NCBI GenBank assembly: GCA_938083135.1
Contig: CALLKY010000025.1
Location: forward strand, 1 to 33,463
Source: an uncultured Alphaproteobacteria bacterium
Lineage (GTDB): Bacteria > Pseudomonadota > Alphaproteobacteria > Bin95
Direction of reading: 5' to 3'
Length of the DNA stretch: 33,463 nt
Each line of letters opens with the position of its first letter. Position 1 is the stretch's first letter. Under the pieces are notes generated by a model. The model was not told where the DNA came from and searched no databases. It saw only the letters and a program-made list of their open reading frames with translations. Shown piece by piece: positions 28,618 to 33,269 of this stretch. A program made the translations under genes and the position numbers.

Positions 28618-30012
28618 ATGATCGTACAGCCGAGAATGATGTCTGGCGCTGAGACCCTGCCCCTTGTTGAGGGCGGGAAAGGCGTATCGGCCACGAACGG
28701 CGTTAGTGCTGGCGCTTGGGCGCGTGCTGGCGGCGTAGGTACGGTTTCTGCCGTGAATGCCGATAGCTTTGCGGAAAATGGCGAGCTTATTCCGCAGCTG
28801 TATTTTGGCCGTACCCGCAAGGAACGCCATCAGGAACTGGTCGCACATGGTGTGCGCGGTGCCATTCACCAAGCCCGGACAGCGTATGAAAGTGCGAACG
28901 GCAATGGCCGTATCCACATCAATGTGCTCTGGGAAATGGGCGGCGCTGAAGAGATACTGCACGGCGCGCTTGCTGGCGCTAAAGGCTTGATCCATGGCGT
29001 CACTTGTGGTGCCGGAATGCCTTACAGGATCGCGCAGATTGCGGCATCCTACAGCGTATATTACTACCCAATTATTTCATCCGCTCGCGCATTCCGTGCG
29101 CTATGGAAGCGGTCTTATCACAAGTTCGAAGATTGGCTTGGCGGTGTTGTTTATGAAGACCCCTGGCTTGCTGGCGGTCACAATGGTCTGTCCAATAGCG
29201 AAGATCCGCTGAAGCCGGAGCCGCCGCGCGCCCGCGTTGCAGAGCTTCGTAAGTTTATGAACGCGGCCGGGTTAAACGACGTGCCGATCATTATGGCAGG
29301 CGGTGTATGGCGCTTGGATGAATGGGCGGATTGGATCGATGATCCAGAAATAGCCCCGGTCGCTTTTCAGTTTGGTACGAGGCCCTTGCTCACCAAAGAA
29401 AGCCCAATCCCGGAGACCTGGAAGTCGCGCCTGCCGCACCTGAAGCCTGGCGAAATTATGCTGAATAAGTTCAGCCCAACAGGTTTCTATTCGTCTGCAG
29501 TCCGCAATGATTTCCTGGACAGCCTCGCAGCGCGCTCTGCGCGTCAAGTGGCGTATTCGGTTGAACCCGTAGGCGATCATGTCGTTGAATTGGCGGTTGG
29601 CGCACGTGGGCGGAAGGTGTTCCTGACCGCGCATGAGAAAGAGCTGGCTGAAGGTTGGATGGCCGAAGGCTTCACGGAAGGTATGCGGACGCCAGATTCG
29701 ACCATGGTCTTCGTAACGCCAACAGCAGCGCGAGACATCCATACTGACCAGGTTGCCTGCATGGGCTGTCTAACGCACTGCCGTTTCTCCAACTGGTCTG
29801 AAGGCGAGAAGGGTACAACGGGGCGGAAGCCTGACCCGCGATCCTTCTGCATTCAGAAGACGCTTCAAGCGATCGCCCATGGTGAGCGGCCTGAAGACAA
29901 CTTGATGTTCGCTGGTCATAACGCTTACCGGTTCTCTGAGGACGTTTGGTACGCAGACGGATTCGTGCCAACTGTAAAGCAGCTCGTGGATCGTATTTTG
30001 ACTGGTCAGTAG
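28618..30012 (+). CDS. Nitronate monooxygenase-family FMN flavoprotein with C-terminal cysteine cluster
   Basis: The 464-residue protein belongs to the nitronate monooxygenase (2-nitropropane dioxygenase-like) TIM-barrel family. VEGGKGVSATNGVSAGAWA and VGTVSAVNAD lie near the N-terminus, YYYPIISSARAF in the middle, and AGGHNG with His188 is the usual active-site position. IIMAGGVW and FQFGTRPLLT should hold the FMN phosphate. The C-terminal part adds four cysteines, CMGCLTHC (Cys381, Cys384, Cys388) and Cys411 in SFCIQK, spaced as for an iron-sulfur cluster; that is inferred. It could be a nitronate oxidase or another flavin reductase. The start ATG 28618 has weak ribosome-site support; methionines seven and eight codons later are alternatives. 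Confidence 0.78.
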   Translation: MIVQPRMMSGAETLPLVEGGKGVSATNGVSAGAWARAGGVGTVSAVNADSFAENGELIPQLYFGRTRKERHQELVAHGVRGAIHQARTAYESANGNGRIHINVLWEMGGAEEILHGALAGAKGLIHGVTCGAGMPYRIAQIAASYSVYYYPIISSARAFRALWKRSYHKFEDWLGGVVYEDPWLAGGHNGLSNSEDPLKPEPPRARVAELRKFMNAAGLNDVPIIMAGGVWRLDEWADWIDDPEIAPVAFQFGTRPLLTKESPIPETWKSRLPHLKPGEIMLNKFSPTGFYSSAVRNDFLDSLAARSARQVAYSVEPVGDHVVELAVGARGRKVFLTAHEKELAEGWMAEGFTEGMRTPDSTMVFVTPTAARDIHTDQVACMGCLTHCRFSNWSEGEKGTTGRKPDPRSFCIQKTLQAIAHGERPEDNLMFAGHNAYRFSEDVWYADGFVPTVKQLVDRILTGQ

Positions 30013-30136: not shown

Positions 30137-30562
30137 ATGCAGACAAATAGCGAAGCCCTTGAAAATGCCGAAACGCAGAACCGTTTGCGTGACGCCGGGC
30201 TACGGCCCACGCGGCAGCGCATCGGTTTAGCGAACTTGCTGTTTGCTGGTGATTGCCGCCATGTGACGGCGGAGGAATTGTTTGCTGAAGCGAATGCGGC
30301 CGCACTCAGCGTATCCCTCGCCACTGTCTATAATACCCTTCGACAGTTTGTAGATGCTGGATTGCTCCGGGAAGTGCTGGCGGAGCCTGGGCGGGCTTAT
30401 TTCGACACTAATATTTCGGATCATCATCACTTCTTCCATGTGGCCGAAGGCCGGTTGGAAGATGTTCCAGCCGATGCCGTAAGCATTGCCAAGCTGCCAG
30501 TGGCACCGGCTGGCGCTAATGTCGAGCGGGTTGACGTCATTATCCGGCTGAACAAAGCCTGA
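30137..30562 (+). CDS. irr: Iron response regulator Irr (Fur family)
   Basis: Irr is the alphaproteobacterial Fur-family regulator that senses haem rather than free iron and controls haem synthesis, iron storage and uptake. The 141-residue protein has GLRPTRQRIGLANLLF (21-36) and SLATVYNTLRQFVDAGLL (60-77), which form the winged helix. AYFDTNISDHHHFF (87-100) carries the three-histidine haem/metal site typical of Irr. The N-terminal cysteine-containing haem regulatory motif of Bradyrhizobium Irr is not present, as in many alphaproteobacteria. ATG 30137 is preceded by AGGAGG (30121-30126); the frame is open upstream from a TTG, which I reject. It is the first gene before the rubrerythrin block. 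Confidence 0.88.
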   Translation: MQTNSEALENAETQNRLRDAGLRPTRQRIGLANLLFAGDCRHVTAEELFAEANAAALSVSLATVYNTLRQFVDAGLLREVLAEPGRAYFDTNISDHHHFFHVAEGRLEDVPADAVSIAKLPVAPAGANVERVDVIIRLNKA

Positions 30563-30604: not shown

Positions 30605-30622
30605 CTTAGAACCTGTCTAAAG
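30605..30622 (+). promoter_or_regulatory. Irr-box-like inverted repeat upstream of rubrerythrin
   Basis: CTTAGA (30605-30610) and TCTAAAG (30616-30622) form an imperfect inverted repeat around ACCTG. It resembles the iron control element bound by Irr, whose arms read TTAGAA/TTCTAA. It lies two bases upstream of a candidate -35 and 90 bases ahead of the rubrerythrin ATG. The match is by eye and has not been scored. Confidence 0.45.
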
Positions 30623-30624
30623 AA

Positions 30625-30652
30625 TTGACTCTTAGCCGAGATTATCCATATT
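30625..30652 (+). promoter_or_regulatory. Candidate promoter for rubrerythrin
   Basis: TTGACT (30625-30630) and CATATT (30647-30652) are separated by 16 bases; a 17-base alternative gives ATATTC. The -35 is strong and the -10 weaker, a pattern often seen where a regulator assists or blocks polymerase. Confidence 0.45.
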
Positions 30653-30712: not shown

Positions 30713-31129
30713 ATGGCGCTTAAGGGCAGCAAAACAGAAGACAACCTGAAAGAAGCGTTTGCTGGCGAAAGCCAAGCGAACCGCCGCTATCTGTATTTCG
30801 CACAGAAGGCTGACATTGAAGGCCACAATGATGTTGCCGCCGTATTCCGCTCCACAGCAGAAGGCGAAACCGGCCACGCACACGGTCACCTCGAATATCT
30901 CGAAGAGACGGGCGATCCGGCTACCGGCCTGGCCATCGGCCCGACTGAAGATAACCTAAAAGCTGCGGTTGCTGGCGAAACTCACGAATACACGGACATG
31001 TATCCGGGCATGGCCCGTACGGCTCGTGACGAAGGTTTCGACGAGATTGCAGACTGGTTTGAGACACTGGCGAAGGCTGAACGCAGCCATGCCGGTCGCT
31101 TCCAGAAAGCGCTCGACGAACTCGCATAA
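30713..31129 (+). CDS. Rubrerythrin (di-iron domain only)
   Basis: Rubrerythrins reduce hydrogen peroxide at a di-iron centre in a four-helix bundle. The 138-residue protein consists of that domain alone. The ligand pattern is present: Glu19 in [11 protein letters not shown], Glu52 with His55 in GETGHAHGH, Glu89 and Glu92 in GETHEYTDM, and Glu123 with His126 in AERSHAGRF. The usual C-terminal rubredoxin domain is missing, so electrons must come from another protein. ATG 30713 has GAGGAGGG upstream; an open frame from 30659 has no such site. The following iron-sulfur protein and DUF3501 gene form a set that I recall as recurrent in proteobacteria. A stable hairpin after its stop may raise rubrerythrin above its neighbours. 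Confidence 0.9.
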
Positions 31130-31267: not shown

Positions 31268-32635
31268 ATGAGCGAAGGCAGCCTCGAAGCGCCAACCCGT
31301 CACGTCATTGACTGGAACAACCCAGATTTCACCAATCCGGCGCTGCTGGATGAAGAGATGCGCCGCATCTTTGATATCTGCCATGGCTGCCGTCGGTGTT
31401 TTAATCTCTGCGACAGTTTTCCGCGCCTGTTTGATCTGGTTGACAGCGCGCCGTCTGAAGAGCTCGACACAGTTGATAGCGCAGGTTTCAAGGGCGTCGT
31501 GGATGCGTGCACCTTGTGTGATCTCTGCTTCATGACGAAATGCCCCTATGTCCCGCCGCACGAATTCGACCTTGATTTCCCGCACCTCATGCTGCGCTAC
31601 CGCCATGCTGAATTGAAGCGAGATGGCGCGAATACCCGCATTAAGCAGCTGACGGAAACGGACCGTAATTCCAAAATGGCTGGCCTTGCGCCGTCAATCG
31701 CGAATTGGGCAAGCAAGACCGACAACAATCTGACCCGTCCCGTGATGGAAAAGACGCTTGGCCTGCACCGGGATGCCGCGCTACCGAAGTTTGCCGCCAA
31801 GACACTTGTGAACGCGGCCAATGAAAACCCGGCGCAAGTCGATGCGACCGCACCTGGTTATGGCCGCAAGGCAGTCCTCTATGCGACCTGCTTTGGCAAT
31901 TATAATGACCCGGATATCGGCCTTGCAGCACGCCATGTGCTCGCGAAAAATGGCGTCCGGACGGAAGTCACCTATGAAGGCTGCTGTGGCATGCCGCAGT
32001 TAGAACAGGGCGATCTGGCGCGTGTGGCTGAACAGGCAAAGACCGTCGCGGCGGCCCTGGTCGCTCAATGGGTTGATTATGATTATGACGTCGTGCCGCT
32101 GGTGCCGTCCTGCGCGTTGATGTTCAAGTTTGAATGGCCGTTGATCGTGCCGGATGATGAGAATGTGCGAAAGCTTGCTGAGGCGACTAAGGACATCTCG
32201 GGATACGTCGTGGAGATCGCCAAAAAGGAAGGCCTTGCTGACGGCATGGTTCCTTTGGATGGCGACGTGACGATGCATCTTGCTTGCCACGCGCGCGCTC
32301 AAAATATGGGGCCGAAGGCGGCAGAGATGTTGCGAATGATCCCTGAAACCAAGGTGGCAATCATCGAGCGTTGTTCTGGCCATGGCGGCTCTTGGGGTGC
32401 GATGAAAGAGAATTTCGATGTGGCGTTAAAGGTCGGCAAACCGGTGGCGAAGCAGGCGGTTAAGGCAATGCAGCAATCGGCTGCGAAAGACCGCAAACGC
32501 TACATCGCATCGGAATGCCCGCTTGCCGGCGAGCACATTATGCAGGGTGTGGAGCGTGAGGATGGATCGTTAGAGATCGCCCACGCGCCCCATCCTATCA
32601 AGCTGTTCGCTAAGGCTTACGGCTACGACGTTTGA
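31268..32635 (+). CDS. CCG-domain iron-sulfur oxidoreductase, GlpC/HdrD-like
   Basis: The 455-residue protein begins with two [4Fe-4S] binding sets: Cys38, Cys41, Cys44, Cys48 (CHGCRRCFNLC) and Cys81, Cys84, Cys87, Cys92 (CTLCDLCFMTKC). Two cysteine-rich CCG-type domains follow, as in GlpC, LutA and heterodisulfide reductase subunits. The first is intact (Cys208, Cys239-Cys240, Cys282). In the second (Cys340, Cys369, Cys417) the double cysteine reads Cys-Ser, so its cluster may be absent or altered. Electron transfer to the rubrerythrin is a reasonable inference from adjacency and is not proven. AAGG lies eight bases ahead of the ATG. No membrane segment is evident, so a partner would be needed for any quinone link. 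Confidence 0.87.
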   Translation: MSEGSLEAPTRHVIDWNNPDFTNPALLDEEMRRIFDICHGCRRCFNLCDSFPRLFDLVDSAPSEELDTVDSAGFKGVVDACTLCDLCFMTKCPYVPPHEFDLDFPHLMLRYRHAELKRDGANTRIKQLTETDRNSKMAGLAPSIANWASKTDNNLTRPVMEKTLGLHRDAALPKFAAKTLVNAANENPAQVDATAPGYGRKAVLYATCFGNYNDPDIGLAARHVLAKNGVRTEVTYEGCCGMPQLEQGDLARVAEQAKTVAAALVAQWVDYDYDVVPLVPSCALMFKFEWPLIVPDDENVRKLAEATKDISGYVVEIAKKEGLADGMVPLDGDVTMHLACHARAQNMGPKAAEMLRMIPETKVAIIERCSGHGGSWGAMKENFDVALKVGKPVAKQAVKAMQQSAAKDRKRYIASECPLAGEHIMQGVEREDGSLEIAHAPHPIKLFAKAYGYDV

Positions 32636-32681: not shown

Positions 32682-33269
32682 ATGTCCAAGCGTGAGATTA
32701 CCCGCGCCGATATCATGGATCTGGCAGACTACACGCCGGGCCGCAAAGAACGCCGCCGGGACATGATGCAGATGAAGGCCAACCGCCGCATCGCTGTTGG
32801 CCCGTTCGCGACATTCTACTTCGAGAACTACGCGACCATGTGGCACCAGGTGCATGAGATGCTGGCGATCGAAAAGGGTGGCGAGGCGCAAATTCCAGAT
32901 GAACTTGAAGCCTATAATCCGCTCATTCCCCAAGGCCGTGAGTTGATCGCGACAGTTATGATTGAGATAGATGATCCAATCCGCCGTAAGACAGTGCTCA
33001 ACCGTATGGGCGGGTTTGAGGAGCATATGTACCTGGAGCTGGATGGCGAACGCATTTCGAGCAGGGCTGAAGTTGATGTTGACCGCACATCAGCAGATGG
33101 CAAAGCGTCCAGTGTCCAGTTCGTTCACTTTGAATTGACTGACGCCCAGGCGGATAAGATGAAGCAGGCGAATACCCGCGCCATCCTTGGCATCGACCAT
33201 GAAAACTATGCCCACATGGCCGTTATCCCAGAAAGCGCCCGTGCGGAGCTTGCAGGCGATCTCGATTAA
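32682..33269 (+). CDS. DUF3501 family protein
   Basis: The 195-residue protein matches DUF3501 by its conserved N-terminus (ITRADIMDLADYTPGRKERR), the RRIAVGPFATFYFENYATMWHQVHEML segment in the middle (split here as RRIAVGPFATFYF and ENYATMWHQVHEML) and the C-terminal FVHFELT region. I recall the family as encoded beside rubrerythrin and GlpC-like proteins, but its activity is unknown. It is acidic, has no cysteines and no membrane segment, so it is unlikely to bind a cluster. ATG 32682 is chosen because GAGGAGG (32667-32673) precedes it. It lies 46 bases after the iron-sulfur gene and is the last gene before the IS630 element, which has inserted 11 bases past its stop. Confidence 0.85.
   Translation: MSKREITRADIMDLADYTPGRKERRRDMMQMKANRRIAVGPFATFYFENYATMWHQVHEMLAIEKGGEAQIPDELEAYNPLIPQGRELIATVMIEIDDPIRRKTVLNRMGGFEEHMYLELDGERISSRAEVDVDRTSADGKASSVQFVHFELTDAQADKMKQANTRAILGIDHENYAHMAVIPESARAELAGDLD

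Follow-up and report, generated by a model that had tools for sequence, protein, structure and literature searches.

PerR of Firmicutes and other bacteria is a Fur-family repressor of katA, dps/mrgA and rubrerythrin genes, and it senses peroxide when its own histidines undergo metal-catalysed oxidation. The locus described here concerns the same set of peroxide genes and, probably, a Fur-family repressor as well; however, the regulator is Irr, which answers to haem. Among Irr systems, the boxes at mbfA (blr7895) and bfr of Bradyrhizobium japonicum are alike in combining Irr and its box with a ferritin-like or rubrerythrin-like target and a link between iron and peroxide, according to the available text of two reports (PMC3413700, PMC4902296). 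However, MbfA, which has a ferritin-like domain, is an iron exporter in the membrane, whereas the target here is a small rubrerythrin encoded beside irr, and the start of R. sphaeroides mbfA maps inside the box (PMC3413700, available text), whereas the box here precedes the -35 hexamer. The same source describes an Irr-bound box about 40 nt before the mapped start of R. sphaeroides ccpA, likewise a peroxide-defence gene, although its product is a haem cytochrome c peroxidase (PMC3413700). At the protein level, the target resembles ferriperoxin (Fpx) of Hydrogenobacter thermophilus, a rubrerythrin-like peroxidase without a rubredoxin domain, for which the available text leaves Irr control unmentioned (PMC3317640).

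In the open-licence literature, no description of an Irr box at a rubrerythrin gene beside irr was found, although rbr may have been predicted as an Irr target before. The word rubrerythrin is absent from the available text of a Brucella Irr DAP-seq paper (PMC10374146), and the available portions of PMC5459824, PMC12912731 and PMC3840689 hold nothing decisive on the box. In Magnetospirillum, a rubrerythrin was 2.1-fold lower without oxygen (PMC9549626, available text), which is not decisive either.

The irr-rbr locus and its products

The window (the whole stretch of 33,463 nucleotides analysed) carries irr and rbr in tandem, with an element between them at 30605 to 30621 that is very probably an Irr operator of a peroxide-defence regulon, placed at the rubrerythrin promoter. 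This prediction builds on what can be read from the DNA itself: the box with its conservation and preferred location, and further boxes before dps and katA. The features of the locus are as follows.

30137 to 30562, + strand: irr, encoding a Fur-family haem-responsive regulator of 141 aa (NCBIfam IrrA and Irr, Pfam FUR)
30605 to 30621, no strand assigned: predicted Irr box (iron control element) CTTAGAACCTGTCTAAA, found in the same slot in relatives
30625 to 30630, + strand: -35 hexamer TTGACT, 3 bp past the box
30647 to 30652, + strand: predicted -10 hexamer CATATT after a 16-bp spacer; the relatives' consensus is weak around the same columns
30713 to 31129, + strand: rbr, encoding a ferriperoxin/sulerythrin-like rubrerythrin of 138 aa without a rubredoxin domain (Pfam Rubrerythrin, residues 10 to 133)
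31268 to 32635, + strand: next gene after rbr, encoding a GlpC-like cysteine-rich/4Fe-4S protein (Pfam CCG; NCBIfam GlpC below cut-off)
32682 to 33269, + strand: gene for a DUF3501 protein (Pfam DUF3501), possibly a further member of the cluster

The Irr protein scores 200 bits against NCBIfam IrrA (cut-off 150) and 179 bits against Irr (cut-off 170), passing both, and its gene is one of three FUR-family genes in the genome (E up to 0.001). A histidine-rich motif predicted to bind haem is present as HHH at residues 96 to 98, a feature shared by 55 of the 59 Irr-like ORFs from the first set of loci. The haem regulatory motif of the B. japonicum type is absent, since the single cysteine (Cys40) is not followed by proline; a Cys-Pro pair within the first 60 residues occurs in 1 of the same 59 ORFs. 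According to the available text of a review, the second haem site differs among Irr proteins (PMC7762939), so the absent Cys-Pro sets the subtype and not the membership. As for rbr, its product matches the full-length rubrerythrin model only at positions 3 to 144 of 194, below the cut-off, and the nearest solved structures are chains of 140 to 169 residues, followed by sulerythrin. Upstream of irr lies a nitronate-monooxygenase-like gene (Pfam NMO; window positions 28618 to 30012), and ORFs similar to it, as judged by eye, also precede irr in two relatives (L199 and L208).

The box and its promoter

An earlier note on this DNA had described a palindrome downstream of irr and directly before a TTGACT -35, and both its sequence (CTTAGAACCTGTCTAAAG, 30605 to 30622) and its location are confirmed. 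The likening of its arms to the iron control element of Irr also holds: with the Irr-box consensus taken as TTTAGAAnnnTTCTAAA, the 17-mer agrees in 12 of 14 positions, and in relatives a comparable box is anchored to the -35. By contrast, the arm limits drawn there, CTTAGA and TCTAAAG around a 5-bp centre, had to be redrawn, as the relatives' logo reads TTTAGAA-N3-TTCTAAA.

How far the match exceeds chance depends on the frame of comparison. Within the 150-bp intergenic region, agreement at 12 of 14 positions was reached in just 15 of 20,000 mononucleotide shuffles, and within the window TTAGAAnnnnTCTAAA at up to one mismatch has a single match, compared with 0.00 in 100 shuffles. Across the 4.15-Mb genome, the palindrome sequence at up to two mismatches occurs once, as does a reversed control pattern, and loose matches (up to three mismatches) are unenriched, at 52 versus 74 for the reversed control. 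The earlier note had proposed scoring the region with an Irr-box matrix, and the outcome was divided. With a matrix built from 92 irr-rbr boxes of other families, which is partly circular because these training boxes were picked by consensus match, the box scores 15.4 bits, the top of the window's + strand and far above the runner-up at 7.2. The same score falls in the lowest 2% of the 92 training boxes and is insignificant by itself genome-wide, as chance alone should produce about five equal scores across the genome (a calculated expectation, the genome's other boxes having come from pattern searches). As an independent source of boxes, nine loci with mbfA-like genes were considered and set aside: a box of at least 11/14 stands before the local ORF only in L158, L159 and L160, too few for a matrix.

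The score alone is thus unconvincing and the site a weak one; it is position and conservation that make the case, and because of these the predicted Irr operator is accepted. A functionless chance palindrome, which the weak score, the handful of equals expected per genome and the unenriched loose matches would suit, is the least probable of the readings considered. Such a palindrome would have to have arisen in the very slot of the relatives' boxes, at their modal 3-bp distance from the -35, with a score that few intergenic shuffles reach.

TTGACT-N16-CATATT (30625 to 30652) is the sole sigma-70-like promoter between 30000 and 30800, with 9 of 12 matches, although the call is weak by itself because shuffles yield 0.6 such promoters on average. 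The predicted promoter puts the box centre at about -47. No terminator-like site turned up in the scan of the stretch from the end of irr (30562) to the rubrerythrin start codon (ATG, 30713), so transcripts may also run on into rbr from irr.

Conservation, placement and other Fur-family boxes

Conservation was assessed on 134 rbr loci, comprising 6 of the family, the 28 best-matching of the class and 100 more that were taken mostly in rank order, though some ranks were passed over and three loci from low in the ranking were included, so that they are not a random sample. The class was taken as Alphaproteobacteria, from named relatives, and searching at order level brought in no genomes beyond the 14 of the family search. 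Six of these 14 family genomes have rbr, and in all six (five besides this genome) irr lies upstream with a box of 12 to 14 matches out of 14. Among the 134 loci, irr is found upstream of rbr on the same strand in 119, at a distance of up to 400 bp in 116, and in all 119 the upstream regulator resembles Irr more than it does the Fur-like protein of this genome. The best box in the irr-rbr spacer has at least 11/14 matches in 98 of the 119 loci and at least 12/14 in 78 (96 and 76, respectively, of the 116 within 400 bp); a box of 11/14 is missing from 21. Where no irr is adjacent, 7 of 15 rbr loci have a box of at least 11/14. The first set comprised 54 distinct loci with irr adjacent, of which 37 reach 12/14 or better, whereas 0.18 would be expected from shuffles.

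Placement is conserved as well. A TTGAC-type hexamer (at least 5/6) lies 0 to 6 bp downstream of the box in 83 of the 98 loci, compared with 17 of 392 control windows, and 58 of these 83 share the window's gap of exactly 3 bp. The hexamer is upstream of the box in 7 of the 98 and on neither side in 8. In 289 genomes, box-N3-TTGACW at up to one mismatch has 39 matches (5 for the reversed control), of which 31 are directly before rbr, 2 in an irr-rbr-type spacer on the other strand and 4 elsewhere. The other two matches come right after irr, ahead of a peroxiredoxin-like ORF in L198 and of a second Fur-family ORF in L208, as judged by eye. The irr-box-rbr arrangement is shared by many relatives, so that the switch is well founded but mostly of a known type.

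Boxes of this type are also found at rubrerythrin genes of Gammaproteobacteria. In 37 gamma loci, chosen by record title and scored by a relaxed consensus, 15 have a box of at least 12/14, each preceded by a TTGAC-type hexamer (6/6 in 13, 5/6 in 2); two of them, L021 and L035, also carry a 5/6 hexamer just downstream. Their inner arms are of the C..G type (TTTAGACnnnGTCTAAA) in six, A..T in four and mixed in five; sites of the TTTAGACnnnGTCTAAA type, which follow the -35 at the rbr promoters, belong to L021, L049, L055, L066, L067 and L072. An Irr-like protein is encoded in 8 of the 13 box-bearing gamma genomes examined (out of 15), at 96 to 137 bits to IrrA, below the cut-off of 150. In the other five (L049, L055, L068, L078 and L082) no Irr-like protein was detected, just weaker Fur-like hits, which argues against Irr there unless the assemblies are incomplete.

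These five genomes bear on a further reading, in which the main ligand of the window's box would be a different Fur-family protein of this genome, for instance the Fur-like one encoded on C5. Two more observations point the same way. First, in three sphingomonad genomes (L025, L040 and L084), where an Irr-like protein was not found and a single hit of about 50 bits was obtained in each, a perfect Fur-box-like TGCGAATTATTCGCA occupies the Irr-box slot about 110 bp before rbr, five bases ahead of TTGATC. Second, 13 of the 98 loci have a Fur-like box (at least 11/14) no more than about 30 bp upstream of the Irr box, where 0.28 would be expected and the downstream control gave 0 of 98; the 13 become 12 without L243, whose neighbouring element turns out to be another Irr box, and include the near-twins L272 and L273. 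Such neighbours suggest joint input from Fur and Irr. In the irr-rbr spacer of the window, however, no Fur-like box was seen by eye, and its arms, TTAGAA and TCTAAA, are those found where irr adjoins rbr, so that a regulator other than Irr is very unlikely to be the main ligand here. The loci with an abutting Fur-like box include L286, L297, L270, L292, L245, L272 and L273.

A probable wider peroxide regulon and the sign of control

Outside the window, the two best boxes of the genome precede a Dps-type ferritin gene (13/14) and a catalase gene (12/14).

L116, 1501 to 1517 (own genome, C92): box 16 bp from the start codon of a ferritin gene (Pfam Ferritin; Dps is our reading)
L117, 1501 to 1517 (own genome, C2): box 24 bp from the start codon of the catalase gene katA

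By eye, each of them overlaps the end of a -10 placed 16 bp after TTGAAC. The ferritin box is kept in G012 and G013, and the katA box in G012, while three distant catalase homologues lack it (8 to 9 of 14). In G012 the katA homologue (L322, G012:C49) is 96% identical, with three stops inside the match. Eight further 12/14 matches in the genome (L118 and L120 to L126) have no clear iron or peroxide genes behind them, as judged by eye, and are probably due to chance.

Perfect boxes number 26 in 143 genomes, versus 15 for the reversed control, so the count alone says little. A locus was available for 23 of the 26 and 17 of these could be assigned; the others (L350, L351, L354, L360, L362 and L367) are left out of the argument. 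The assigned boxes precede rbr in five cases, Dps-type genes in four (three called by Pfam Ferritin, L347 by resemblance), ahpC-like genes in four (two of them Pfam-checked), Rrf2 regulators in two, and a catalase and a di-haem peroxidase in one each. Irr, usually discussed as a regulator of iron and haem, is thereby tied to a conserved peroxide-defence set of rubrerythrin, Dps, catalase and AhpC.

Binding by Irr, the sign and signals of control and the order of release are what we infer from these patterns, and a scheme of repression is the one we favour, with reasonable though far from full confidence. At low haem, active Irr from the adjoining gene would bind the box as a dimer next to the rbr -35, hinder RNA polymerase and thereby keep rubrerythrin low. 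Once haem or peroxide rises, Irr would release the box or be destroyed, and rubrerythrin would be made. The same Irr probably also holds down the Dps-type ferritin and catalase genes via stronger boxes over their predicted -10 hexamers; since the rbr box is the weakest of the three, rubrerythrin should be freed first.

The earlier note had left the sign as either activation or haem-dependent repression, and the evidence, without settling the matter, favours repression that haem or peroxide would lift. The preference for repression comes from the two placements of the box, which within one and the same gene family lies before the -35 in some genomes and inside the core promoter in others. In the seven class loci with an upstream hexamer, this is a 6/6 match in every case, at 3 to 5 bp from the box in five and 24 to 25 bp in two, compared with 4 of 294 control windows; L243 is among these seven, its second box standing ahead of that -35. 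Both placements also occur at dps, katA and ahpC, where by eye the box is either near the start or before a -35-like hexamer; the latter applies to L352, L358, L361, L365 and L369, with a full TTGACA only in L358. If position alone set the sign, many flips would be needed.

Activators, too, bind in the slot immediately before a near-consensus -35, and a possible reading, roughly half as probable as repression, keeps the Irr operator and lets Irr activate rbr at low haem while repressing katA and dps from the boxes over the -10, a switch from a haem catalase to a non-haem peroxidase. A box centre near -47 and a preferred 3-bp gap would fit contact with RNA polymerase; however, the gaps vary between 0 and 6 bp, and a -35 close to consensus is unlike most activator-dependent promoters. 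On record in the available text of a review are direct activation by Irr and the dependence of activation or repression on the location of the box (PMC7762939). Against this, R. sphaeroides ccpA, with its like geometry, was not lower in an irr mutant: the available text gives it as about 1.8-fold higher under iron limitation and the same as wild type at normal iron (PMC3413700). In iron-limited Ca. Pelagibacter a rubrerythrin transcript rose 1.57-fold, as far as the available text goes (PMC2864753), which favours activation and would run opposite to repression by low-iron Irr.

The response of Irr to oxidants fits repression better. B. japonicum Irr is reportedly degraded on exposure to peroxide, as one paper states by citing earlier work (PMC4902296, available text), and oxidants reduce Irr in D. 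shibae (PMC8007024, available text). Loss of Irr on peroxide suits a repressor of a peroxidase gene, whereas an activator destroyed by peroxide would shut off the peroxidase just when it is needed. It is rather doubtful that two signs coexist in one regulon, with low-haem Irr repressing catalase and Dps and activating the haem-free rubrerythrin as a class-wide haem-sparing switch; if true, a two-sign Irr would amount to a switch between two peroxide defences, built into the irr-box-rbr gene order.

In these genomes one and the same operator is found ahead of the -35, within the spacer or at the start site, a natural promoter series that makes the question of how the position of Irr sets the sign directly testable. 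One rbr promoter, that of L243, has two perfect Irr boxes flanking its -35.
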